Shown here: in pieces, positions 46,390-64,000 of the stretch
Layout of the letters: each line of letters starts with the position of its first letter
How positions within the stretch are numbered: the stretch's first letter is position 1
From: Purpureocillium takamizusanense
Lineage: Eukaryota; Ascomycota; Sordariomycetes; Hypocreales; Ophiocordycipitaceae
NCBI RefSeq assembly: GCF_022605165.1
Contig: NC_063070.1
Location: 992,001-1,056,000, forward strand
Length of the DNA: 64,000 nucleotides
Reading direction: 5' to 3'
The notes under the pieces: generated by a model
Told to the model about the DNA's origin: nothing
Databases searched by the model: none
What the model saw: the letters and a program-made list of their open reading frames with translations, nothing else
Program-made: the position numbers and the translations under genes

Positions 46390-48077
46390 GGCCACGTCGT
46401 GCTCTGGGCGTACTCTGGAGCGTACTCTGACGTACTCTGAGGCGTGTCTGAGGCGTACTCGAGGGCAATGAACAGCTGATGCAACCGGGTTGGACTCGAG
46501 GCTCGAGGGGGGTAGAGACAGTGTGTCGATCGATGCGTACAACGTCCCAACAGGCTGCAACGGCTGCAACGGCGGTGTCGGCCCCAACGTCTCAACAGCA
46601 ACAGCAACAGCAACAAGCTCAGTGGCGGTTAGAGAGGCAAAGAGAAAAAGGCAACCGAAGGGTCGCTACCAGCAGCCACCGTCTTTACCAGACTGGACAC
46701 GCACTCTACCCCTCAGTCATTCCGGAGAGACGGCCATATGAACAATAAAACGAGGCAACTCCACGCAGGACCGGGGGGGTTATGCAGCCCAGCCGCTGGG
46801 CGGGTTGCCTCGCGCGGCCTCCCATGGCGAACCAACGGGGTCGGCGGGCTGACTAGGACGACCCGGCCAGGGCTGACAATGCTTGGTTTCCTCTCTTCCC
46901 ACTGTGCATGCGGTGCTGGCTGCGGCAAACCCGGCAGCCGGGTCGCTTTCCGGCCCCCAAGCGCGCTCGTGCTCACCCGGCCCCCAAAGCTGCACATTCG
47001 GGACGGGCGGGGACAAGGGTTGCGGATGCTGTCTGGTTGTGCGCCGACCGTAGAAAGAGGGAGTGTCGAAATGATGGCGCTCTCTGCTCTCTTTTGCGGT
47101 TGCGTATGCCATGCACGGAGTTTTGACGCGGGATGCGCCTTGAGAAGTAAACGTGCTTATTGCATGATATCTGTTAGGTCTGTGTTGTTATGCTCCAAGC
47201 GTGGATTTCTCTGAGCGCTCCCACCTAGTCTGCTCCAAGTGACTAAAAAGACGGCGCCTATAACCAGGTACGCTACTGCTAAAACCTATACTTTTTATTG
47301 CTTGAGTTTTATTTCATTCGTGTTTTAGCGGAGTCTACTCGGACTAGAGCTTAGGCTTATTAACATATAGAGTCAATATCCTATATGCTAGAATTATAAC
47401 TGCAATCTATATAAGTCAGAAAAAGCAGCGTGCTAATTAGCCGTCCGTCTAGTTTTTTTTTCCCTGTTTAAAATCTAGCAGTTTTATAGTTAATTACTCC
47501 GCGTATTTATTTTTACTAAGTCTCGAGAAATAATATTAGAGGTGGATGAGGTTAATTTAACTCCAGTCGCTAGGACGACGCTATAACGAAAGAGTTTACA
47601 GAAAAGATTGATTCGCTGCCTCCTATGTCGGACGAGGGAGAAGAATAAAAAGAAGAAGAGGAAGAAGTAAACAAGCCTCGACGCAGTAGCAGCAGAGGAC
47701 AGGCGACTGGATATTGCTTGCTCTCAGCCGCTGTCCTTGAGGTACAGTATTCAACATACGTTAGTACTTGGACAGATATAATATTGCGGTCTACAGTCTA
47801 ACATTAATCGTTTCCGCGTAAAGAGCATCACGGCCCGTTTGTCTCGGCAGGATATGTCACCGCCGCAGACACCACCTCGCTTCGGCAGGATCATGTTTCC
47901 ATCATACTGTACTTTATACACCATTACAGCAAGACACAACGGCGATGCAGTATCAACATGCGTGATTCGTTCATATACACGTCTCAGCCCTTCCCAGTCA
48001 AGACATAATGCAACAGGCCCAATGTCAGCAAACCTCCGTGACTCCAAACTCCAGCAACTAGCAACTCGTCAAAGGAC
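46390..48077. other. Spacer between protease-like gene and POL2 3' end
   Basis: This 1.69-kb spacer contains the promoter of the protease-like gene (CAACAG/AACAGC repeats near 46595-46620), an AT-rich island listed separately, and the POL2 3' flank. No gene was supported. Confidence 0.6.
47215..47760. repeat. AT-rich island, likely RIP-degraded repeat relic
   Basis: Sample 60-base blocks here have about 17-19 G/C (near 30 percent), against well over half G/C in surrounding DNA. TA steps and runs such as ATATAG and TTATAG are frequent, and no frame survives. In Pezizomycotina this is the usual look of a transposon copy mutated by repeat-induced point mutation. The boundaries are approximate and the original element is not recognisable. 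Confidence 0.55.
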
Positions 48078-51000
48078 TCACAGCCCCGCGTACACGCCGT
48101 CGACGACGTCCCCCAGCATGCGCAGCTGGTAGTACCGGGCCACGCGCCTCATGACGGCCAGGCGGCGCGTCACGTCGTCGCGGGCCACCACCTCGGTCCA
48201 CTCGCCGCTGCAGGTGCAGTGCTCCATGAGGTCGTTGACGCGCAGGGCGCCGCAGCGCGCGCACTTGAGGTCCTGCGTCGCCCACTCGACGAGCCACGCC
48301 TGCACCATGGCCACGAGGCGCTCCTCGACGGCGACGCGGTCGTACTCGCTCCCGCACAGCGCGCACCGCCACGCCTGCGCGTCGGGCTCGCGGCCGCCCC
48401 CCCGCAGCAGGTCTTCGTCCCGGCACAGGTCCAGGTCCCGCGCCATGGTGCAGCTGTCGCACGACACCTGCGCCAGCCGCAGGCTCTCCGACGGGTTGGC
48501 AAAGGTGCCGTCGCGGGAGAACTCGCGCACCTCAAACAGCGCCAGCAGCTCCTTGCGCAGCAGCCGCGCCTCGAGCGTGATGTTCTTGTCGAGCGACAGC
48601 ACCTGCATGAGCGACTTGACCAGCTCCAGCACCGGCCCGCCGCGGTGCTGCAGGTGCGAGCCCGGCAGCGTGGGGAACGAGTAGTCCTCGGCCAGCTCCG
48701 GGTGCAGGAGCTCGCGCTTCTGCTGGTTGACGAGGCCCACGATGGCCTTTTTGAGCGGCTTCTCGAATGCCTTGCCCAGGATGATGTGCTGCTGCTGCCC
48801 CTCTCCGTCGCCGAGCTTGTCCGCCGGCAGCTGCGTGAGGCGCGGCGTCGAGTTCGGATCCGCCCCCGGCGCCGGCCGCTTGAGCGAGTGCATGAGCTGG
48901 ATAAACTCAATCACCCACTCCTGGAAGACGGGCTGCAGGCGCGCGGGCAGAAACGTGGCCATCTGCCAGTGCATGACGGTCTCGAGGCGCTGCTCCTCGG
49001 CCTCGACCACCTCCTGGCACGCCTTGCCGCCGTAGTTGAACTCGTCGTACCACACCAGGTAGTCCCAGTACTCGGTGATCTCGAGGTCGATGAAGTGGAA
49101 CAGCGGCTTGCTCTTGATGGACTTGATGACGTACTGGCTGTAGGCAAAGGCGTTGCCGACCTCGGCCTTGGTCGTCTGCAGGATCAGGCGGTTGGCGCTG
49201 GCGAAGACGACCTGCGAGCCGACGCGGCGGAAGTCGGCCATGAGCTGCTGGAACGCCTTGCGCGACATCATCTGCACGTAGTGGTGCAGCGCGCGGTCGT
49301 ACATGAAGGAGTCGGGGCTCTCGACCCAGCGCACCAGGTGCTGCACCAGCACGTCGGCCATGGTGCTGCCCTTGCACGCCTCTGCCCACCACGCCTTGAC
49401 CATCTCCCGCAGCACCAGCACGCCCGCGTTGGAAAAGGCGTTGTCCGACGCCAGGGCCTCGGAGCCGTCCGCCGTCGGGTTGAGGGAGACGGCGTCGGCG
49501 CCCTCGAGCTCGTTGATGAGCGACGACGTCAGCACCGTGTTGATGGCCAGGTTGCGCACGTCCAGGTCGATGCACACGGACGAGTAGGTGCCGGGGTTGT
49601 TAACGCTGGGCATCTTGACCGCGTCCAGGAGGGGGCCGACGACGTCGTCGTTCTCGTAGCCCGCGTGGTCGGGACGCGCGCCCGCCGACCACCACAGCAC
49701 CACCCCGTTGGCCTGCAGCCGCCGCGCGTAGGCGATGTCGATGAGGAAGCGCGGGTCCTCGCGCTCCAGGTTGCACAGGGGCACGTCGCCGTGCCGCGCG
49801 AGCGCCGTCAGGTGCAGGATCCACGACCCGAGCCCCAGGTAGTGCCCGACCAGGCGGCGCGCCACCACCGACTGCCATCCCAGCGGCGGCAGCGAGCTGT
49901 CCGAGGCGTCGTACTTGAGCGGCAGCACCGGGAACTCGCCCAGGACCGGCACGTCGTGCACGAGGAGGTTGCGCTGCGGCGACTGGATCACCATCATCTG
50001 CGGCCGGGCGGCGGCCTCGTCCTTGCGCATCTTCTTGACGATGTCGCCGATCTCGAGGTGGGCCTTGCGCCGCGTCGTCACCTGCGTGATCCGAAACGTC
50101 ACCCGCTCCTGGTACGTGAAGCAGTCCTGCCAGTTGGTGCCGGCCGCCTCCCGCGCCCGCGCCGCCAGCATCTCGGCGTACAGTCGCGTCACGTTGGGCA
50201 GGTCCTGCCCCGAGTCTCTGCTCTTCTGCAGGATCACCACGTGCGCCTGGTCGCTGGTCGTGGAGAAGATGCCAAAGACCTGCCGCTCGCCGGCGGTGAT
50301 GTGCGACATGTAAATGTACGCCAGCGGCGACGACTCCAGGTACGTCCGCGGCTTGAGCGGGCGCCGGAGGCCACCCAGGTCGAAGCCCGTCTCCAGGCCG
50401 CGGCCGAGGACGCCCTGCTGCTCCTCGTCGATGGTGCACAGGTTGCCCAGCTGCAGCACGGCCCGGACGTTGAGCGGCACCTGCTTCTCGTACACGCCCT
50501 CGACGCTCGGGTGGTTGAAGAGCAGCGAGAACTTGTCCGCCTGGCTAAAGTAGACGTCCTCGGGCACCGTCAGCTTGAAGAGGTGGCTCGACGGGTGCCC
50601 GTTGGGCAGCGTGTGGTTGACCTGCTCGACGTGGCAGCCGTCAATCTCAATGTCGGGCAGCTCCTTGCTCTTGAGGTTGAGAAACACCTGCCGGGGCACC
50701 TTGATCTTGACGGTGTGGATCTTGCCGTCGATGAGCATGTGCGCCGTGACGATGCCGGGGCTGTCCGTCGCCTTGAGGTGAAGCAGCTGCCACGTGCTCA
50801 TGAACGTCAGATGGGCCTGCTTGCGGAACGTCTGCTCGATGTTGCTGTTGCCGCCGCTGCCGCCGACGACGCCTTTGCGCTCGCCAAACAGCTGCCGCCG
50901 GCGAATCCGCGCCTGCTTCTGCAGCTTCCACTTTTTCTTCTGGTACTGCAGAAAGGCCGGGTAGTCGTCCGACGGCCCGGGCATCTCCTTGGGCAGCGCC

Positions 51001-54000
51001 GCCGCCAGGGGGTCCGCGCCCTCGGCCGGTTCGGGAGACTTGCGCTTCTGCGCCGTGGCCGCCGTGGCCGCCGTCGCTGCCTGCGAGGACGCAATCGCCG
51101 CGCTCACCGTCCTCGGCTTCAGCAGCCTGTCCCCAAAGTCCTCCATGTCCTCCACGCGCGTCCCACTCAGGTTGGTAATCTCCCCCAGCGGCTCCTTGCT
51201 AAACAGGTCCGTGAGCTTCTTCTGCTTCATCTTGTCGTCCTTGATGTTGATGCGCCGCTGCAGCCAGTCGGGGTGCGGCACGCGCGGCACCGGGTTGCGG
51301 ACCTTTTGCAGGGCCGCCGGGATGGTGATGAGCTTCTGGATGACGGAGCCCAGGCGCTCGAGGTAGTAGTCCCAGTCGAGCAGGGCCCGCGGGTCCGTGT
51401 CGGCGGGCTCCTCCTTGAGCCACTTCCTCAGGTACGTCCGCTTGACCGTCTCGTCGGCGGAGAAGATGGCCACGGGGACGGCGCGCTCCGTGACGGGCGC
51501 GCTGCGCGGCCGCGAGCAGATGATGAACTTGCAGTTGAGCCCCTTGTCCTTGACCATTTGCTCGCCGAGGAAGTCGGCCAGGCGCCGCGCCGTCGTGATG
51601 CTCGTCGACTTTTGGCTGCCGTACTCCTCGAGCGTCTTGGACATGCTGCGGTTCTCCGAGATGAGCTCCATGAGCTCCTCGTCGGCGAGCGTGGACCCCT
51701 TGCTGTGCAGCACGTCGAGCCACCGGTTCGCCACCTTGGCGACGGCCGCGTAGCACTGCGCCAGGTCCTCGCCCTCGAGGAAGAACTTGAAGATTTGCTG
51801 CTGGAAGATCTTGATGAGCTTGAGCTCGCCGCGTCGCTTGACCTCGAAGCCCTTGAGCTCCGCGAGGCTGCCGTCGTCGTTGAAGACGGCGTAGCGCTTC
51901 TTGAGGTTCTTGTCCTCCTCCTTGGACGTCGGCAGGATCATGGCCCGGTACGGCCCGTCGACCTCGAAGAAGATGGAGTTGTCGCTGTGCGTCTCGTACC
52001 GGAACGTCTTGGGGTCCGCGAGCGTCTGGTACTGGTGGTTGGTGAACCGGTCGTGCACCAGGTGGTTCAGCATCACGCACGGGTACGAGATGTTGAGCTT
52101 CTTGCCGTTCTTGAGCCGAAAGGCAAAGTTCTCGGGGAACGTGGCCGGCAGCATGCACCAGATGCCGTCCGTGTCGAGCTCGAGCGGGCGGCCGAGGCGC
52201 TCGACGAGCTGGCGCGCCATCTGGATGATGGTGGCGCCCGTCAGGCACGTCACGCCGGCCATCTCCATCGAGTACCAGCGCGAGCCCTTGCGCATGACGT
52301 AGCCGTAAAACGAGTTGAGGATGACCTTGTGCGCCAGCTGCAGCGAGTCGTACAGGATAATCATCTTCTTGGCCGCGTCCACGTCGCCCGCCGAGGCGCC
52401 CGACGACTTGAGCGCCTCCGTCTTGCCCTTCCACACCTTGGCCTTGCCCTTGTAGTCGTAGCGGCGGTCGCGGAAGTCGCGCACCGTGTTGATGTAGAAG
52501 GGGTTCTCGCGCTGGCAGATGATGGCCTCGCGCACAATCGTCGTCGAGTCGTGGATCTTGTGGTACACCTTTTGCGAAAACAGCTGCAGGCGCTTGCGCA
52601 CGAGGCCGGCCTGCTCGTCGGCGCCCAGGTCCTGGAACGTCCGCATCGGCGCCTGCGGCGTCTTGCCCGGGAACCGCTCGTTCTCGAGCGCGTTGCGGAT
52701 CATGTTGTACTCGTCGCGCTTGGCCGGCATGTACTCGCCGCGCCACGCCCAGGGCATCCGCCGGTCGCACGTCTTGCCGGGCCGGTTGAAGTCGCAGGCC
52801 GCGCAGTCCGACTCGGAGATCATCGAGTCCGGCTGCAGCCGGTTCGTCGTCATGATGTTGGGGTACATGGACGCCACGTCCAGGTGGTAGATGAGCGGCC
52901 GCTCGTGGCGGTTCGGCACCTCCTTGAGCTTGGCCAGCGCGTCGACGATTTGCCGCCGGACCTCGTCGTAGTTTTCCACCTCGTCGAGGCTCTTCTTCTC
53001 CTCGACCGTGATGACGAAGCGCAGCGCCGAGTCGAGGTCGCGCAGCAGCTCGTCGACGGCGCCCGGGTCCACGGCGAAGTCGACGGGGATGTCGGAGCGG
53101 AACACGCCCGCCTCGATGCTCTCGACGTGGCCGCCCACGTACGTCTCCGAGTCGAGCAGGTGCCCGTCCCAGAAGGCCTCCTTGGGCGACTGGTGCTTGT
53201 TGGGCAGCACAATCTCCTTTTGGTAGGCCTGCACCATGAGGAGCATCTCGCACAGCGTGCCCGTGCCCTTTCTCAGCGTGTCGTCGCCGCCCAGCGGCAG
53301 GATGGTGCACAGCGAGAAGATAAAGGGGTGCACGTACTTCATGTACAGGTAGTAGGTCGCGACGGCGTCCGACACCGAGTACTCGGCCAGCGTCTGCGGG
53401 CGCTCGCTCGCGTACGGCGTCATCAGCTCCGGGTCCAGCTCGTCCGGGTCGTAGCCCAGCTTGGCGACGGTGACGGCCTTGAGGCCGCGCGAGCCCTGCG
53501 GCAGATACGAGTCGCGGTTGACCCAGTGGAAGCAGTCCATGTGCACGCCGTAGCTGCACTTGAACTGGTCCTCGCCGTCCTTTTTCCACCCAATCTCCTG
53601 GTACATGTCGATGCCGTTGACGCTCGCCCGCGCCTCCACAAACGGCCAGTCGAAGAAGTCGCCGTTGTACGTGGCAATCACCGTCGGCCGCGCCTCCTTG
53701 ACGTGCAGGAAGAAGCGCTCGATGAGGGCCTTTTCGTTGGGCTCGTTGAAGATCATGAATGGCCCCGGGTACTCGGGCTTGGGCGTGTAGTCAAAGTCGC
53801 CAATGTCCTCGGAGATGATTTCGCGGTTGGTGATGAGGAACCCCTGGCCGTCAATCATGTACGAAATCATCATGATCTGGTCAATCGCCGCGTCGGGGAA
53901 CTTGAGCGGCAGCTTGGTCGTCTCAATGTCAAACGCCAGCACCACCGGGTCCGCGGGCAGCGAGCGCTCCTCGTTGAGCCACACCTTGGTCACGCCGTGC

Positions 54001-54910
54001 TTGGCCTCGACAAAGTACCATTTTCCCACTCGTATGTCTGCAACGGTCAGCTGGCCAACCCGGCAGACGTCGGGGACAGATAGCCGGGTCCGACTCACCC
54101 AAGTCGATCATGACTCGCACGTGGTACGGCACATCGTATTCGCGAATGTCGACAATGTAGTCGCTCGCGTCCGCAAACGAGCCGTTGGCCCGGTCGTTGT
54201 CGCGCAGGTCGTCGTCGAAGAGATCAAAGTTGCCGCTGGCTCTGTCACGGGTCAGTCGAGGAGCGAGCTGCAGGACGGGTGGCCATGGGCACATACGACA
54301 CCACCTCGGCGTAGGCGTCCATGGCATTCATGTTCTTCTTGTTCTTCTCCGCGACGGGCATTATGTCCCGCCTCGCCGCCATGAGGTCGCCGACGTTGGC
54401 AAACTTGAGCTCGAGAAACGTCCGGCGGTGGCCGAGCAGGTGGTTCGGCAGCTTCAGGTCGTCCTTTTCGATGCGCCGGACGCCCTTGACGAGGCCGCCG
54501 CCGCCGGGCACGCGCTTGATCCACTCCTCGACCTCGGACTCGTGGCCCCTCTTGACGGCGATGAGGAAATACGGATCGTACTCGACCGTCGCCTTGAACG
54601 TCGACCCGTCGAGCTCGATAAAGTAGCAGTCGAGCGCCGCCCGCCCGCCGGGTATCCTCTCGTCCTCGATGGCCGTCGACTGCACGTTGACGAGCCAGCC
54701 CTCCTTTTTCTTGCCGCTCTCGTACCGGCCGAAGCCCATGTTCTCGTCGATGGTGTGCGCCAGCCGCGTGCGCTCCCACTTCTCGTCGGCAGACGTGCCC
54801 TCGGCCCGCGACGAGGCCGCAAAGGTCCGTCCGCCCCGTCCGCCATGGTATGCCGCCTTGCCGCCGCGGCGGAAGCCCTTTTGCGGCCGCCGGAGGCTTG
54901 TGTTGGGCAT
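48078..54910 (-). CDS. POL2: DNA polymerase epsilon catalytic subunit A (Pol2)
   Basis: Model: complement(join(48078..54037,54099..54241,54297..54910)), 2238 aa (yeast 2222). This is the leading-strand replicase with proofreading. Exonuclease motifs are FDIETTKLP (D289/E291), NGDFFDWPF and YSVSDAVATYY. Polymerase motifs are LDVASMYPNI (A), NSFYGYVMRKGSRWYS (B) and LDTDGIWC (C). The inactivated second polymerase-like half fills about 1200-2000. The C-terminus carries two cysteine clusters, CDSCTMARDLDLC...CALCG and CARCGALRVNDLMEHCTC, which bind zinc or iron-sulfur and dock the B subunit. Both introns lie near the N-terminus, and splicing restores VVSASGNFDLF and MIDLDIRVGKWY. All catalytic residues are intact, so the protein should be functional. 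It is divergent from COX20. Confidence 0.97.
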
Positions 54911-54982
54911 GGCGGAGCTCGAGCTATGTGACGGTGGCTCCTTGGTGTGTGGCGGGCGTCATGGGTGTTGTGGATTGGGTTG

Positions 54983-55070
54983 GATGCCGCAGACGCTGGG
55001 TGTAGATGAACCTGCAATGGATTCGCAGACGCTGGGTGTAGATGAACCTACAATCGATGCCGCAGACGCC
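54983..55070. repeat. 36-bp tandem repeat, 2.4 copies, in the POL2/COX20 promoter
   Basis: Unit 1 (54983-55019) and unit 2 (55020-55055) share CGCAGACGCTGGGTGTAGAT followed by GAACCT; a third partial unit starts with GATGCCGCAGACGC. The copies differ at only a few positions, so the duplication is fairly recent. Confidence 0.8.
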
Positions 55071-55151
55071 AGGTTGTGGTACGGCGCCAGGATGCTCTTG
55101 GCGATGAGGGTGTCTCAAACGCAGTCTGTGGCTCAAGGGAGACGCGCTTCG

Positions 55152-55157
55152 ACGCGT
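55152..55157. promoter_or_regulatory. MCB-like ACGCGT element
   Basis: ACGCGT is the yeast MluI cell-cycle box bound by MBF at G1/S genes, including replication genes. It lies about 240 bp upstream of the POL2 start and 315 bp upstream of COX20. It is a single short match in GC-rich DNA, so weak on its own. Confidence 0.35.
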
Positions 55158-55470
55158 CCACCGCGCTACGACACGCATCTTTTCCGCCCCGCGACTGGCA
55201 GTTTAATGGATTCTGGTGGGCCCGCCTCAGCCACAGCGGGCCCGCGTCCGGCCTGCCCTGCACAAGCCACCGACCGACGGCTGTGGGCCGCCGCCGAACA
55301 TTTCGGCGTCATCGCCGGGCTTCCTCCAAAACCTCCCAACCGTTCCAAAACGCCCCCCGAGCCCGTTCCCGCGCCCGACCCCGCGCACTCGGGACGCAGA
55401 CCTCGTCTCACTCGCCCCCCGGCGCCTTGCATGCCACACGCTGCGCCGCCGCAGAGGTAGCCAGTCGGCC

Positions 55471-56048
55471 ATGGCGCCAGACACCCCCCGCGAGCCGACG
55501 ACACCCGGCCCGGACCAGAAGACCCTGCACGTGTGGTCGAAGCCGATAGAGCACAAGGACGCGCAGGGCCAGGACGGGTCCGGGACGCCGAGCCCCCAGA
55601 GCCGGCCGACGCTGTCAGACGCCGTCGCCACGATCAAGACAGAGGACTTCGCCACCGTGGCCAGCACGCCGTGCGCGAGAAACGGCTTCCTCACGGGCAT
55701 CGCCTCGGGCGCCGGCGTCGGAGGGCTCAAGTTTGTGCTCCAAGGTCCGTCGGCCCGCGCGCACACCCCGCCGCCCAGCGGCTGCTGCTACAGTTTTCTG
55801 ACACGCCCACAGGAAACGCAATCAAGGCCGCCAACTGGGCCGTGGGGATATTCGTCCTCGGCAGCACCCTGTCGTACGAGTACTGCCAGTATCAGCGGCG
55901 CGTCGAGAAGATACAGATGAAGAGGCACATTGAGATTGTCTCCGAGAACAGGAGAGAGCAGGCGCGCAAGCTGGCCGAGGAGAGACGGGAGAAGCAGAGG
56001 ACAGAAGAGGCCAAGGCCGCGCCGAAGCCATGGTACAGGTTTTGGTAG
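55471..56048 (+). CDS. COX20: Cytochrome c oxidase assembly protein Cox20
   Basis: Model: join(55471..55744,55813..56048), 169 aa. Cox20 is an inner mitochondrial membrane chaperone for Cox2 maturation. The N-terminal half is hydrophilic and Pro/Thr-rich and ends with the conserved segment RNGFLTGIASGAGVGGLKFVL, the first membrane helix. Splicing adds GNAIKAANWAVGIFVLGSTLSYEYCQYQRR, the second membrane helix with its Tyr/Cys motif. A long charged helix follows (VEKIQMKRHIEIVSENRREQ) and the tail KPWYRFW. The intron is 68 nt with a GTCCGT donor, slightly weaker than the others, but phase and family alignment support it. The gene is divergent from POL2. Confidence 0.88.
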
Positions 56049-56439
56049 GATTCCGGTGCCGTGTACGATCATGTAAAAAGACATGCCTAAAAAGACATGC
56101 ACGCGAGGCAGGAATGGGATTCCATCGTGTATTCATGGAGCGGTGCGAGAACGAGATTCCATCATGTATTCATGTATTCATGAAGGGTGCGGGAATGAAA
56201 TTGCATCATGTATTCATGTATTCATGGAGCGGCGCTATGAGGATTACTCTTGGATTTTCCGGAAATCGAATCCATGTCCATGCCCATGCCCATGTCCAGC
56301 GCGCAACGCCAGAAGCCAAAGCCCAGCAAGCCCGTCCGTCCGTCCGTCGAGCAACCGGCCGCCCAAACGCCTGCCTGCAAATCATGTGTTGTTATCATTC
56401 ATCGTAATGTTCATGCCCGTGCCCAGCCCCGTCGCGTCC
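56049..56439. other. Intergenic, 3' flank of COX20 with tandem repeats
   Basis: These 391 bp between convergent genes hold a tandem repeat of about 44 bp and a CCATGC/CCATGT array near 56272-56300. No gene was seen. Confidence 0.6.
56111..56235. repeat. 44-bp tandem repeat, three diverged copies
   Basis: Three consecutive units (56111-56146, 56147-56190, 56191-56235) each contain ATTCCATC or ATTGCATC, then GTATTCATG once or twice, then GGAGCGGTGC or a variant. The second and third copies carry a doubled GTATTCAT. The unit lies 63 bp after the COX20 stop, probably in its 3' untranslated region. Confidence 0.75.
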
Positions 56440-57441
56440 TTAGATGGTCGTCACGGCAATCTTTTGGCTCTCGACGTCGATGAACCGGACCCGTCGCGTC
56501 GGCGACTTCTTCTTGACCACGCCGCCGCCGCTGCCCGACGTTGGCGTGGGAGTGGTGCCTCGTCGTCGTTGGCTCCGCCGGGCCCGCGCCTCGCTCTCCT
56601 CGCGTCTGCGGTACTCGGCCATCTGCTGGCGGCGCTTCATGGCGCGGACCTGCGCCAGCGCCGGCGTGGGCTTGAACCCGACGCCGTTGATGCCGGTCCC
56701 GTCGTCGTCCTCGTCGTCTGGGTCGTAGATTGTGATTTCGTCCTCGTGCCACGTGAGGGCGGCGCGCACTGGGTCCACGACGGACGGCTCGTCGGCGGCG
56801 GCGCTCGCGGCCTTGCCCTTGGCGGACGGCGACCTCTTCAGCCGGAGCGGCGGGGTGCCGGCGCGGCGTCTGCCCGGGGGCTTGGGGTGGTCGTCGACGA
56901 CGGGCAGCTGCAGGGGACGGTCGGGGGCCTCGGTGGACGCAAAGGCGACGTCGGGCCGAGGCGACGACGCGCGAGCCGCGGAAGGGTTCAAACAGGCGGC
57001 CGTCTGGGGCGAGGATGCTGACGCTTGGGCATTCTGGGACGAGGCTGCCGACGTTGGGGTGCTCTGGGATGACGGCGGCTTGCTAGACGTCGTCTCCGCC
57101 TCGGCGACACCCGCCATGTCCTCGTCGGGCCGCCTGCGCTTGCTCTTGGCTGTCATGGCGGCATCGTCGTCGTCTCCGTCGCTGCCGTCCCGGTGGCTGT
57201 TGTCGCCGGGGGGTCCGTCGTTGTCCTTGTCGTTATCGTCGTCGTCGTCAACGACCCCGCCCCCACCAGCGCCTCCGAGCGCTAGGCCGCGGAACCTGTG
57301 GGCGACCCGCGAGGCCGGGCTGCTGTCGCCATCCTCGGCCGGCTGCGTCTTGGCTGGGTCAAAGGAGAACTTGATGGGCGTGATGGGCAGCTCCTGGCCG
57401 CGCTTCCGCTTCGGCGTGGCCTTGGGCGACGGCTCGGCCAT
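56440..57441 (-). CDS. Low-complexity, probably nuclear protein of unknown function
   Basis: Single exon, 333 aa. The N-terminus MAEPSPKATPKRKRGQELP contains a basic nuclear-type signal and leads to ITPIKFSFDP and RVAHRFRGLALGG, which look conserved. An Asp/Asn-rich acidic tract (about 66-90) and a second basic patch KSKRRRPDED follow. The middle is Ser/Ala/Pro-rich and disordered. The C-terminal third holds the best-folded part: RAALTWHEDEITIYDPDDEDDDGTGINGVGF split by acidic residues, KPTPALAQVRAMKRRQQMAEYRRREESEARARRSQRR as a basic helix, and RRVRFIDVESQKIAVTTI. I do not recognise a named family. The gene converges on COX20. Confidence 0.7.
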   Translation of the reverse strand: MAEPSPKATPKRKRGQELPITPIKFSFDPAKTQPAEDGDSSPASRVAHRFRGLALGGAGGGGVVDDDDDNDKDNDGPPGDNSHRDGSDGDDDDAAMTAKSKRRRPDEDMAGVAEAETTSSKPPSSQSTPTSAASSQNAQASASSPQTAACLNPSAARASSPRPDVAFASTEAPDRPLQLPVVDDHPKPPGRRRAGTPPLRLKRSPSAKGKAASAAADEPSVVDPVRAALTWHEDEITIYDPDDEDDDGTGINGVGFKPTPALAQVRAMKRRQQMAEYRRREESEARARRSQRRRGTTPTPTSGSGGGVVKKKSPTRRVRFIDVESQKIAVTTI

Positions 57442-58565
57442 GGTTGCGGTGCGTGGCCTCGAGAGGGATCGGGATCCGTGGTGGCGGCCGTTGCGGGCGG
57501 GCTGGCCGTGTGTCGGGTGGCTTTGAGCGGTGCGGTGGCCCGCTGAAGAGCCGAGCTGGGGCAGCTGCAGCCACTGGAGCTCGGCGTGCGACCTCGCTGG
57601 CTGACGTTTCGTATCGGGGTAGGTGTACTGTACTTTGTGGGTATCGGCGAGGACGGAATGCGATGCCGTGTCGTTTTCGGAACGTTTGGCAGCGAGACTG
57701 CCAGGTGGCCGACAGCCAAGGGAGCGAGCCGCAGGTAGCTTGCTATTGCAGGAGGAAGCGGAGTCGCATTGCGCGTGCGGCTCGCGGCGGGCGTGGTGTT
57801 AAGAAGGGTGGTGTGTGAGAGGCGTTGCAACTTTGGAGACGGCAAGGGCCGAGTCTCGCAGCCAAGCGCATTAGTGGTGACCGACACCACGTGGAAGCCC
57901 AGGTCACGTTCCACTTGCAACGGAACAGACACTATATCGGGAGCAGAATTCTTTCGTCGCTACAAGTCCACCGTCGCGTTGCAAATACTGTAACAGCAGC
58001 CAAACCACCTACTCGCCGCCGGACCTGCAAGACGTGCCAACAGCTCCCCCGACGAACTGTTCCACGTTGCCAATGCGCTGGGCCTCTAGAATCGGCCATG
58101 GCGCGCCTTATGCGCCTCGCCGCATATGCCGTGTCGCGCGCAGCATGTGCTGGTGAATGTGAGATGAACTTGATGTTCTCAATTGAAGTCGTCCAGGCGT
58201 CTTGCTGCTTATAGTGTGCTTACAGCATCGACTGGCCCCGCTGCTACAGTCAGCCAGATGCGTAAGCAGCCCGTGGAGTGGTTGGGTCATTCACTGTAGT
58301 GAGCTAGATAAACACTTAGTGGAGACCTGCTTACCGGCTTCCTGGGAAGCCGTACATTCGCAATACATTTGCTATAAATTAGAAATAACACAGCACGTAA
58401 TAGAACTAGGAATCGAGTACTCCGCAGTAAAGAATGATTATACGTATTTCAAAACAGGTATCATGACTCTGAATCTCATCGCCGTTTTTCACATGTCGTT
58501 CCACCCCTCACCGAAGCCGCCTGCATGTGTTGTCCCAGAGCTCATATGCAACTACCAGCAGGTCT
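57442..58565. other. Spacer between the nuclear protein gene and paralogue 1
   Basis: This 1.12-kb spacer contains the promoter of the nuclear protein gene and, from about 58290 to 58480, an A/T-richer patch with no coding sense, possibly another decayed repeat. No gene was supported. Confidence 0.55.
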
Positions 58566-60497
58566 TCAAGACGGCACCGCACCACCCTCGTGCACCCACC
58601 TCTGGTGCTGCCGTTTCATCGTCTTCTTGACCTCTTCTGTAAGCGGCTCAATGGTCAGCCTGAACACCTCCGTGTTGGTCGATGCCGCCCCGTGACCCCC
58701 GTCCCTTCGAGACCCGGTGACGAGGATCATGAATTCCCGGAAAGTCTTTCTAAAATTCTCCATCTCCCTATCCCCTCCATACCGTATCCAGTGGCATATC
58801 TCCTCCCCGCCCGGAGCCTTCATGGTGATGGAAACGCCCTTCGCGCCGCTGTTGTTGAAATCAAGTCCCGTGAGCTCCGCGATGCCCTCGTTGAAATCCG
58901 ACAGCTTCAGCTCTTCAAAGCGGCGACCGGGGAACCACATCGCCGTGTGAGTGTGGTTTCTGAGCTGATATATATACGGCTCCTCGGGGGCGTCGCCGGG
59001 GGCACGGACCGTGTCATCGAACGCCAATGTAGGCCCCTCCTCGAGGCCTGTGCCTGGTTGATGCACATGCGTGGCGGCGGCTGCGGGTTGCGTCGGCGAA
59101 GCATTGCTACATGTAGTCTCAACAGGCGGCGCCGGCTCCATCGCCACCGCACTTGCCGTGCCGGATCCTCCAGAAGGTGTCGGTGAAGACGTCGATGGAG
59201 TCTCGCGTGTCGGTGACGGTGGCGGCGAAGGGTGAGCCGAGGTCTGTTGGCCCGGTCTGTACAGCCAGGGAGGCGCAGTCTGGGCCCGGAACCCACGTCC
59301 ACGCGATGACGACGACGACACCTCGTCGTCTACCGGCCAACTGGGAACGGGAGGAGGGCCCATGCCGGCAGCATCCGAGGACCCTGCTGGAAGCGACGGG
59401 TCTGCGGCTGGCTGTGGCACCTCTGCCCTGTCGTCTTCTTGCTCGAGCGTGGGTGATCTCTCGCCGACACTGCGACGCTCCTGGTCCGGCAGCGTACGCG
59501 TCTCTTCGACCTGCTCGGTCTGCACGTCTCTCTGCACCGTCTCGTCTCCATGAGTGCTGGGCCGTATCGAGGGGCCTTCTGTCTCCCTGTCGTGGACACC
59601 GCCAGCCAAGGATGGAGTCTTGGACTGTGCCGAGAAGTCATTGACGAATTCCTCCATCATTCTGTCAAAGCGGGGGCTAAGCCCATACTCCATGCCCTCG
59701 GAGCCGCCTTGCGCATCTCTACCCGAGCCAACGGAGGATGGTGCCAGCTCCGTGCGAAACCCTGAAGCTTCTTCGGTACTGGGCCGCGCGACGGTGGGCT
59801 GTCCTCGTGGCGGCTGGGTTGCGCCCGTAGCTATGCCAGTCTGGTATGCCGCCGCGACGGATGGATAGGACGTTGGAAGCCTGAGGGTGACGACTCGGGC
59901 CTCGCGTGTCACCCGGCCGGCTTCGTGCAAGCCATCAGTACTGGCTGGCCGAGTCGCTGATGCTTGGCCCACCGCTTCTGCAAGGGACCGCCGAGGGGGT
60001 AGAGCAGAGGCAGCTTCACCGGCGCTGGTGCTGTCCACATGGGCTCGTGCCTGTCTCTTGGCTCTATGGGTATACCTGCCGCTGCCTCCATCACGCCTGC
60101 GCTTCCGACGTCTGGGGGCTGGGGTTGGTGGCTCCTCGGGGAGATCTGAAGCGATGAGGCGCTCAACAAACTCCTCGTCCGCCTGGTCCCCGCGATAAGG
60201 GGGCCTGGATTTGCGGGCGGACCTACGCGGACTTTGGCCACCCCTCCTCGCATATGACATTGGTGTTGCGCCCCCGGGGCCCTCGCCCGCACCCCGTGAG
60301 CCGCCGTCTGTCACCACGGAGTCAGCCCGCATCGAAGCGTAGGGGACCCGCGGCCCACCGCTTCCTTCGGCAGACAAGGCGAATGCTCGTGAGTCGAAGC
60401 GGCTGGAGGTGTGAGTCTCGGGAGCTCTCGACCCCGAGCCCTCAAGGGGCGGACGGGATGCAGGGGCTTCAGGGCTAGGAAACGTCCATGTCGTGGC

Positions 60498-60528
<31 letters not shown>

Positions 60529-61049
60529 CGGGTCGAGGGCTGGGCTGGGCTGCCCGACGACGTTGTGCTTCCTCGCCCCGTCCTGTTCATGTGGTTCTTG
60601 TGCCAGTACTTGTTCTTCTTGAAGATGATGTGGCGAAGCAACACGACGATCCTGGAAACAGAACGCTCAGTCAACGCAGTAACAAACCCGGAGCGGAGCA
60701 GGGGACACAAAACATGCCGCACTTACCGGTCGTGATCCCTCGTGTGGTGAAGTCTCCGCGTGGCGTCTGCCGCCACCGGTTCATGTTCGTCGGGCCACAG
60801 CTGCCGTCCATGATCCTCGAGAAACGCTGTTGCCGCCTCGGTTAGACCCTGCTGGTGGTCGTCCGAGTTCCAGTCATTCAGCCCGCGTCCCGGTATCCTC
60901 GTCTGCCGTGTGGTGAAGAGCGTTATGAAGCCTCTGAGTAGCCTGGTAAAGTGCTGTGCCGTGCCGACACCGAATCCCAACTGTGCCTCCAAGTCATACA
61001 CTCCGTCAGCACGAGACATAGTGTGGGAAGCCCGAGGGATCGGTGCCAT
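58566..61049 (-). CDS. Unknown family, paralogue 1 (N-terminal block, disordered middle, conserved C-terminal domain)
   Basis: Model: complement(join(58566..60651,60727..61049)), 802 aa, with one 75-nt intron splitting an Arg codon (CG/G, R108). I do not recognise the family. The N-terminal domain (about 15-130) has LGFGVGT, LNDW at 57-60, HQQGLTEAATAFLEDHG and, after the intron, IVVLLRHIIFKKNKYW. A 500-residue disordered middle is rich in Pro, Ser, Glu and Arg, with a PE repeat near 140, a basic nuclear-type patch after EEPPTPAP (RRRKRRR) and RAQTAPPWLYRP near 561. The C-terminal domain (about 664-790) looks like mixed beta/alpha: PYIYQLRNHTHTAMWFPGRRFEE, LTGLDFNNSGAKGVSITMK, ICHWIRYGGDREMENFRKTF, VFRLTIEPL. 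The start at 61049 puts LNDW at exactly the same position as in the divergent paralogue. A later Met at 61019 is possible. Confidence 0.75.
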
Positions 61050-61800
61050 ACGCTCTGACGAGAAACGTCATGTGAGGCAGTCGAAATGTCTATTTAATAC
61101 ACGCTCTGTCTATATATGCGTAGAGGCAGCCTGATGTGTTCGGAAACTGTCCGGTTCTCTTCCGCAAAACGCCCAAACCTGCACATTTGGGATTATGCCC
61201 CTCATTAATAGTTCCTGGTTACCAATCGGATTTCTTCCGTCAGTACTTGGTATAAGCAGTCCTGAAGCTTAGACCTCCTGAAACTGACCGGTCTCGATAT
61301 TCTGTTAGGTCTGGTATCCTAAGGTAGACTAGATGGAATACTATAGAAGTTATATCCAGTAACTATACAGAGCAGACCTACTACCTAAGCACGGGCCTTA
61401 CGTAGCAAATGAAAAGATAAAAGAAAACAAGTAAACAGGGGGTTCAACGAGTCATGACATCCCGCGGAGACTGGAAAATGTCTCGACGTGATTTGGGGGC
61501 TATGCACGCAGAACCGCACCGGTCAGGGCGGCACGGGATTTTTGCCCCATGTCGTCAAGTGCCAGCTCGTATGACCGGCATCCGCACAGGCATCCGCAGC
61601 AGACATGAGTTGCACTGGCTTTCGTCAGCCTTGGTTTCCTCTTTACTGCGTCTGCCTTGCTTTACTGCGCTGTGCTGTGCTGTGCTGCTCCTCGGCCGTT
61701 CCGGTGCAGCAGTGACTCCCTCCATCACTCGACTCCATGCCCTCAGTGTCTGGTCGTTGCGGTTCTAGAGACCAACGGTTCCTGCCAACACTGAACCAGC
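61050..61800. other. Shared divergent spacer of the two paralogues, with AT-rich patch
   Basis: This 751-bp spacer should contain both promoters. Between about 61135 and 61445 it is markedly richer in A/T, with many TA steps, resembling a RIP-mutated relic. A CTGTG pentanucleotide array lies near 61668-61690. No gene was seen. Confidence 0.6.
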
Positions 61801-64000
61801 ATGCCAGAGACTCTGCTCTACGCGGTCCCTCCGAGGCTTCCCCGGGCTCCCAACATCGGCAAGCTGAAAAAGAGCCTTGGATTCCCCAAGGGTGCCGACG
61901 TGCTCTTCAACGACCAAGTCAAGTCGTTTAGAGAATCATTCGTGTTCAAAGGATGCCCCTGCAGCAAACTCAACGACTGGCGCGACGAGTTCCACCAAGA
62001 GGGCCTCAGAGAGTCGACGGCGGCGTTCCTCGAAGAACATGGAGAGCGGTTCTGGCCCGCAAGAGTGCAAGCGCCGAGGGAGCGCAGTCGGTAGGGAAAG
62101 ACACTTGCACCATGTTCTGTGTGCGTATCGTGCTGACCACGTGCGCGCCCTCCAGCATCGCGGGCATGCTCCATCAGCTCATCTACGCGAGGAACTACTG
62201 GAAGCACTACTACGATATGAAGAAGAGCCACGCCCGCGGGGACTATTCGGTCTTGCCAAGAAGGCGTGGGAGACGACGGGCCGGCCCGGTGACGTCGGAC
62301 ATTGCGGGCATGGCTCACCCACCACGTGCGGACGGGGGGGAGGACAACAAGCCGTCGACCTCCAGTGTCGATTCACGCATATACGACTATATCGGGTCGG
62401 AGTCAGGTAGGAATACGGCCTCTTTGCCTTGGGCGACTGCTGACGCCCATAGATGACGGACCGGAGAGTTCCCACGAGGGCTCGCGGGTTACAACGCCGT
62501 CGGGAGATGCTGAACATGTACGTGCTCCGTGGTCAAAACCCTCGACCGCTGTCACGGATGGCTGATTGTGCATAGGGACGCTCAGATGCGGCCGCTCACC
62601 GTCCCAGTCCCGGGGACCAGTCCTCGCCCGGACTGCCTCGCACACCTTCTGCGTCTGCTTCTGGGGGTGCAGATGAAGCTCACCGAGATGACACGGACGG
62701 CGGGAGCGAGTACTACCCGACAGAAGGCGCCTATGAGGCGTCCGACGAAGAGCCTCCCCGAAAGAAGAAGAAGACGGGCCAGGGGTCTCATTGTACACCG
62801 CGTCGAGGCAACGGAGGCCGTGCCGAGCTCGACCCGGCGCGTGCCAGGCCCAAGGCCCCCGAGGCACCGCAACGCTCGCAGCCGACAGACGCCGCGAGAC
62901 CTGTCCCTGAAGAAGCGAGACCCCTGACGCCGACCACGACAAGCCCTGGGCGACACGGGCGGGAACCGTCGGGCAAGTGTGCGTATAGCACGCTCCAGTT
63001 CCAACCAACTCCGCACCGCCATGCCGACACGGATCGTGCAGCAAAGAACGTCGACGCCCCCGCGGTTGCCACCGGCGCTTCGCCCCCTACACGTCAAGAA
63101 CAGTCTGGCGACAAGTCTGTCGCCAGCCCTTGCGAGTCCCGTGCGGAACTTGCTAGCGGTGACCAGGTCCGGAGCGCACACCGACAGAGTGCCCCCGAGC
63201 GCACGTCACCGAGACGCCACGACACCGAGACTGGAGCGGACAAGGATCTTGAGCCACCAAAGGTCTTGCCATCTGATGACGCTGCTCGTGGCACGGGGGC
63301 AGAGACGGCACAGCACGGAAAGAACGCACATCAGGGAAAGAACGCACGGCACGAAAAGCATCAACGGCCCCTGGCACCGTCCACAGCCCTCGCCGACCCC
63401 GGGACGTCGTCTGCCTCCATCCCTGCAGTCACCGAGCAGGTCGCTGCGGTGCAACCATCGAAGCTGACAAGCCCGCAAGGCCAAGCGCCACACGAGCCGC
63501 ATCCTATGCCAAGTCAAGAGAAGGCGCAGGCGCCGCGGGCTGGCCCTGAGATGTGTAACACACCGTCGCAGCAAGACACGGCACCCGACGCGGAGAGAAT
63601 GCCCCCTCCGGCTGCTATACCGTCGGCCACGAGGCGTGTACGGGCGCAGACGGAGCCTCCTTGGCAGCAGGGGCCCGTCAAGAGTGCACCATCACCCCTA
63701 CCATCGCAAAGACCAGCTGCCGCACAAGCTCCGCCGCCGCCGCCTACGCCTCGCGCAGCCATGGCGACCCCGGCCGAGGACGTCTCAGTTGGTTCGACCC
63801 CGGGTCGACCCAAAGATGCAACGGCGTCACAGTCAAGTGCCCAGGCCGAGCAGCAGAGCGTCCCCCCGAAACCCGCTGCCGACTCTCGCCAACACAAGAC
63901 TGCAGGGCATCCTGCTGCCCAAACGGGATACGAATGGGAATACATCGTCAAGAGACGCACCGTTGGCGAGGTTGTGTGGCTACCCGGCTGCGCCTTTGAG
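61801..64000 (+). CDS. Unknown family, paralogue 2 (3' end beyond window)
   Basis: Model: join(61801..62090,62156..62406,62453..62517,62576..>64000), 677 codons in the window with no stop. The first exon carries LGFPKGADV, LNDW at 57-60 and HQEGLRESTAAFLEEHG. Its first intron (65 nt) splits an Arg codon (CG/C, R97) exactly like paralogue 1, and the next exon begins IAGMLHQLIYARNYWKHYYDM. A disordered Pro/Ser/Gln-rich middle contains SDEEPPRKKKKTG and VRAQTEPPWQQGP. The last 24 codons, YEWEYIVKRRTVGEVVWLPG and then CAFE, match the start of the C-terminal domain of paralogue 1. Introns 2 and 3 (46 and 58 nt) are inferred from splice consensus and phase and are less certain than intron 1. About 130 residues are probably missing to the right. 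Confidence 0.7.

Follow-up and report, generated by a model that had tools for sequence, protein, structure and literature searches.

An intact, strongly diverged pair of divergently transcribed paralogous genes without a match to known protein families in Purpureocillium takamizusanense

Near the right-hand end of the window (the whole analysed stretch of 64,000 nucleotides from contig NC_063070.1 of the insect-killing fungus Purpureocillium takamizusanense), two long coding regions on opposite strands raise the question of whether they are genuine genes, whether they descend from a common ancestor, and what kind of proteins they specify. According to the spliced models, both predicted from the sequence in this analysis, gene 1 (58566..61049, minus strand; exon 1, 61049-60727; exon 2, 60651-58566) encodes the 802-residue protein P1 and contains one GT-AG intron of 75 nt (60652..60726, minus strand), whereas gene 2 (plus strand; exons 61801-62090, 62156-62406, 62453-62517 and 62576-64300) encodes the 776-residue protein P2 and contains three GT-AG introns of 65, 46 and 58 nt. 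Splice sites are canonical and both spliced frames are open, that of gene 2 up to its stop codon; the greater part of P1 exon 2, read from an internal ATG, corresponds to a separate protein record of 674 residues (P0001). The divergent gene pair described in the first-pass annotation is thus confirmed, as is its AT-richer spacer of 751 bp (61050..61800; GC 0.507 versus 0.632 in each gene). Gene 2 was correctly placed there, but the end of the window is not the end of the gene: it occupies 61801..64000 in the window and continues to window-equivalent 64300, its final 300 bases lying outside (L002:2401-2700; L002:2700 corresponds to window-equivalent 64300).

BLASTP comparison of the spliced proteins revealed two separately conserved regions. 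The N-terminal blocks (P1 residues 11-130, 60585..61019, minus strand; P2 residues 13-119, 61837..62222, plus strand; each split by intron 1) aligned with an E-value of 3e-14 (37/120 identical), and the C-terminal blocks (P1 residues 667-802, 58569..58976, minus strand; P2 residues 658-776, plus strand, starting at 63941..64000 and extending to window-equivalent 64297) with an E-value of 7e-10 (32/117 identical); the score of either block was equalled by none of 1000 shuffles. The motif LNDW is located at residues 57-60 of both proteins, and a recount of the alignment from this point reproduced the 17 identities in 30 residues given earlier. The C-terminal blocks, whose starts had also been said to match, begin with YIYQLRN...WFPG at residue 667 of P1 and YIVKRR...WLPG at residue 658 of P2. 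In both proteins the two blocks flank a long Pro/Ser/Ala-rich middle, so that the single architecture proposed for the pair holds. In addition, intron 1 interrupts both N-terminal blocks at the identical position and phase: in P1 after codon 107 and two bases, inside the arginine of an aligned Arg-Ile pair, and in P2 (62091..62155, plus strand) at the homologous position after codon 96 and two bases. Conservation of the intron sequence itself was considered and left unused as too weak (11 of 12 bases match, equalled in 28/2000 shuffles).

Long reading frames as such are poor evidence for genes here, since GC-rich DNA yields long spurious frames, e.g. one of 1954 codons on the strand opposite Pol2. 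That the pair consists of chance open frames or of pseudogenes is nevertheless very improbable: two separately conserved blocks, canonical splice sites and open spliced frames argue against it, and a common intron position is not to be expected from chance frames. The block E-values and the position of intron 1 firmly support the earlier view of diverged paralogues, and it appears almost certain that P1 and P2 are real genes, real paralogues and without a match to a known family.

The last part of this statement is based on several searches. Pfam-A contained no family for the four exon-level ORFs of the pair (E up to 1), and with the spliced N-terminal blocks and both C-terminal blocks (E up to 10) the sole match was the bacterial T6SS_FHA_C at an E-value of 0.22, below the cut-off; a strong match of either block to a described domain, which the first-pass annotation had named as speaking against its reading, was thus found in none of the Pfam scans. 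Queries from P1 gave nothing significant among PDB sequences (best E-value 0.39 for the C-terminal block and 1.2 for exon 1). Structure prediction, proposed earlier as a check, returned no usable fold for P1 exon 1 and the C-terminal block: the exon 1 model was all-helical at low confidence (pLDDT 54), that of the C-terminal block likewise of low confidence (pLDDT 46), and Foldseek found no significant fold with these two models (best E-values 3.7 and 0.19, respectively). Descriptions of the domains are therefore tentative. Within Pfam, PDB (P1 queries), Foldseek and a short-word search of 5.8 billion proteins, the designation as an unrecognised family is supported.

In the last of these searches the P1 C-terminal block matched only itself at E-values up to 1, among 541 candidates. 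The method works by short words and loses much of its power under about 50% identity: in a rough simulation with uniform substitution, two or more words were shared with a probability of 0.96 at 60% identity, 0.71 at 50% and 0.26 at 40%. As a control, Pol2 of the window retrieved 832 proteins (7992 candidates scored), with many named Hypocreales among the 120 matches listed; the nearest of these, at 88% over residues 1000-1400, came from P. lavendulum, followed by Hirsutella, Drechmeria and Tolypocladium (81-82%). The database thus covers the phylogenetic neighbourhood, and in view of the simulation a relative above approximately 55-60% identity is unlikely to be present in it, while faster-evolving orthologues could escape. 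A search with the two N-terminal exons carries no weight (0 matches, 48 candidates), the window's own exons having been missed as well. No relative was detected in prokaryotic contigs (query A1) or viral contigs (queries A1 and A2), and a literature search, possible by words and not by sequence, found no paper on the pair. Taken together, a restriction to Purpureocillium or to the species itself is somewhat more probable than a wider distribution; lineage specificity is likely rather than established because relatives below about 50% identity could pass unseen. The earlier characterization as a "rapidly evolving, lineage-specific system" is plausible, where "system" would mean that P1 and P2 act together, the one argument for this being their common intergenic region.

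The limited reach of the word-based search, which loses relatives below about 50% identity, bears directly on a sober explanation: P1 and P2 may be an ordinary fast-evolving pair of structural or scaffold proteins (e.g. disordered proteins of the cytoplasm, the septum or the cell cortex) whose orthologues have become too diverged for detection. Homology detection failure has been published as explaining many lineage-specific genes, as far as the available part of the source goes (PMC7660931). Under this explanation, which has a real though uncertain claim, the conserved island and the basic clusters described below would be incidental; that the island and its spacing are kept better than expected, and that basic clusters occur in both proteins, speaks against it.

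How many members the family has was determined with separate blocks. The genome searched comprised 35,574,015 bases in 14 contigs; the published assembly of strain PT3 has 35.6 Mb in 14 scaffolds (maximum 6.1 Mb, N50 3.09 Mb, L50 4; PMC9302088), and the same paper gives the accession of a public RNA-seq data set of this strain from one culture condition (SRR16888993). Each of four block searches recovered the partner gene (E-values 6.7e-6 to 5.4e-10; the P1 C-terminal block found P2 at 4.3e-6), and together they revealed two copies and no convincing third, although a more diverged copy could escape. A hit on contig C4 (E 0.195) was rejected as a third copy, being devoid of LNDW and situated inside a frame of 74 codons. 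Degenerate DNA patterns for three motifs each matched both genes, one pattern having an unrelated extra site; this match of the LNDW..HQ pattern, on contig C10, was likewise dismissed as a further copy, the other block residues being absent around the site. The long ORFs, which consist mostly of low-complexity sequence, found only themselves when used as queries and missed even the partner gene, and copy number was therefore not taken from these searches.

The pair is located 1.05 Mb into a contig of 3.47 Mb and hence not near a contig end, between POL2 on the left (48078-54098) and an aldose 1-epimerase gene on the right (L002:6183-7226). Subtelomeric expanded families of the TLO type comprise several copies near chromosome ends; two copies at this internal position do not correspond to such a family. 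The same position is relevant to a possible function of the pair as allorecognition (incompatibility) or drive-like determinants, in which linked, diverged and lineage-restricted genes provoke a reaction when their products or alleles are mismatched. The linked divergent arrangement, the strong divergence and the failure to find a relative of the P1 C-terminal block would fit such a role, and lineage-specific genes of Neurospora crassa by the telomeres were mostly clustered with HET-domain genes in the available part of one report (PMC10684091); those genes, however, are telomere-adjacent in the same partial source, in contrast to the present locus. Moreover, a HET domain was absent from both proteins in the Pfam scans, and the 23 ORFs run against Pfam yielded neither HET nor transposase or integrase families; 20 of these ORFs belong to the window, where 70 ORFs of at least 200 residues, many of them spurious, are present. 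An allorecognition or drive function is accordingly considered unlikely.

To the right of the pair, a short ankyrin-repeat ORF and two AT-rich stretches (L002:3580-4260, GC 0.43; L002:5450-5710, GC 0.34) were observed, the TA/AT ratios of the latter (1.41 and 1.54) resembling those of RIP-mutated DNA by the usual thresholds. This neighbourhood could suggest domesticated or decaying mobile-element genes, or horizontally acquired ones, beside AT-rich relics, all the more as the GC3 of the pair (0.67 and 0.66) is below that of six Pfam-supported ORFs of the window (0.79-0.96). Against 20 sampled genome regions, though, such values are ordinary (GC3 <0.68 in 11 of 18 long ORFs, a set that may include antisense frames), so that a horizontal origin read from codon use was rejected and a foreign origin is unsupported. 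A mobile origin is further opposed by the finding of two copies, by the spacer and by the single AT-rich stretch searched, each of which matches only itself in the genome, by the lack of transposase and integrase families among the scanned ORFs, and by the flanks (54100-58565 versus L002:2701-6182), which share no significant repeat (best E-value 0.19 over 13 bases). A mobile or foreign origin of the pair is thus quite doubtful.

The middles of P1 and P2 (about 530 residues) consist to 54-56% of Pro, Ser, Thr, Gly or Ala. Their low hydrophobic content (14% and 10%) and their charge-hydropathy values, which place them on the disordered side (both N-terminal blocks fall slightly on this side, too), fit a disordered region. 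As a whole, the two middles align somewhat better than shuffled sequences (score reached by 3/1000), whereas their best ungapped segment is no better than shuffles (120/300 reach it). A short island nevertheless stands out once rare residues are given more weight: RAQTAPPW in P1 (residues 563-570; 59265..59288, minus strand) and RAQTEPPW in P2 (residues 558-565; 63641..63664, plus strand), situated 104 and 100 residues, respectively, upstream of the C-terminal block. Its BLOSUM62 score of 43 over eight columns was equalled anywhere in the middle by 8/2000 shuffles, and by 1/2000 at distances from the C-terminal block differing by no more than 20; by mere identity count, a 7/8 match in the middle is not rare (3/40 shuffles). 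The degenerate DNA pattern of the island occurred only at these two sites in 35.6 Mb, and the reversed-pattern control gave 0.

The island harbors the only R-x-x-[S/T]-x-P of each protein, i.e. one 14-3-3 client motif of the mode-1 docking pattern per protein at the matching position; two genomic loci scored above the 14-3-3 family cut-off. As about 1.5 and 1.1 such sites are expected by chance from the composition of the two middles, only the conservation of the island is informative. Both middles also contain NLS-like basic clusters, RRRKRRR in P1 (residues 288-294; 60093..60113, minus strand) and RKKKK in P2 (residues 264-268; 62759..62773, plus strand), preceded by EEPP immediately in P2 and four residues earlier in P1; P2 possesses a second cluster, RRRGRRR, from residue 132. 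These clusters may function as nuclear localization signals. Like the common intron position, the island and the basic clusters are additions to the first-pass annotation.

P1 and P2 are best read as intact but strongly diverged inverted duplicates from a taxonomically restricted fungal family; tentatively, they would be nuclear adaptors or regulators with a phospho-switch. A helical N-terminal domain and a small alpha/beta C-terminal domain would represent binding ends that possibly pair P1 with P2, and nuclear import would depend on a basic signal in the disordered middle; a single phospho-threonine in R-A-Q-T-[A/E]-P-P-W (Thr-566 in P1, Thr-561 in P2) might act as a switch, read by a 14-3-3 protein that sets location or partner. 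Co-expression would result from the common 751-bp region, presumably a bidirectional promoter, the two halves of which share no significant similarity (shared motifs as good in 270/500 shuffles). Confidence in the adaptor model is kept low because two short features per protein underlie it; that the role is instead incidental or structural and that orthologues have escaped detection is about equally likely. A more far-reaching version, in which heterotypic, disordered nuclear adaptors with new end folds, one promoter region and one 14-3-3 site form a two-protein system evolving fast enough to serve, within Purpureocillium, as a species-level barrier of recognition or regulation, is improbable as a whole.

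Fungi possess many such restricted gene families, and these are difficult to investigate. The present pair, with its end blocks, conserved intron and single candidate phospho-site, is amenable to cheap and concrete tests, and the interval between POL2 and the aldose epimerase gene offers a clean locus at which a comparison of sister species could show whether genes were gained or lost or whether homology went undetected. Compared with other orphan fungal families, the pair is alike in that the searches beyond its own genome detected no homologue, that its duplicates are diverged and that their middle is long and of low complexity; it differs in its location inside a contig between housekeeping genes and in possessing a conserved block at either end, together with a conserved intron, instead of a short single frame. 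Linked fungal allorecognition gene pairs, e.g. het-B and HET-S/NWD2, resemble it, as far as the available parts of the sources go, in being adjacent and possibly rapidly diverging (PMC10890737, PMC3321046), whereas P1 and P2 are paralogues of one architecture with no Pfam domain in either. By its possible way of working, the pair may also be set beside nuclear proteins of a regulated kind; in the Pfam and PDB scans, no DNA-binding or enzymatic domain was recognised in P1 and P2. FOXO and HDAC4 are nuclear shuttling proteins regulated by 14-3-3, and with this type the pair has in common a basic cluster and a single conserved R-x-x-T-x-P within a low-complexity region.

The first introns of the two divergently transcribed paralogous genes have the sequence CATGTT[T/C]TGTGT in common, located at window positions 60705-60716 (minus strand) in the P1 gene and 62111-62122 (plus strand) in the P2 gene, although the aligned N- and C-terminal protein blocks of P1 and P2 are less than 40% identical; the intron match is weak (28 of 2000 shuffles were as good).

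A low-complexity frame of 333 aa adjoining the pair (56440-57441, minus strand) gave no match in the Pfam search and possibly represents a further gene of poor conservation. Frame-based gene calls in the window have to be treated with caution, since an open frame of 1954 codons (48219-54083, plus strand) runs antisense to almost all of POL2, the gene left of the pair; it is probably a by-product of the very high third-position GC of POL2 (0.957). Immediately past the POL2 3' end lies an AT-rich kilobase (47001-48000, GC 0.45); GC per kilobase in the rest of the window was 0.52-0.71.

Right of the pair, in the overlapping stretch L002, the minus strand carries a short ankyrin-repeat ORF of 186 aa, possibly a gene that has been truncated (L002:4392-4952, equivalent to window positions 65992-66552). 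This ORF is flanked by two AT-rich stretches (L002:3580-4260, GC 0.43; L002:5450-5710, GC 0.34), both of which revealed RIP-like dinucleotide ratios.
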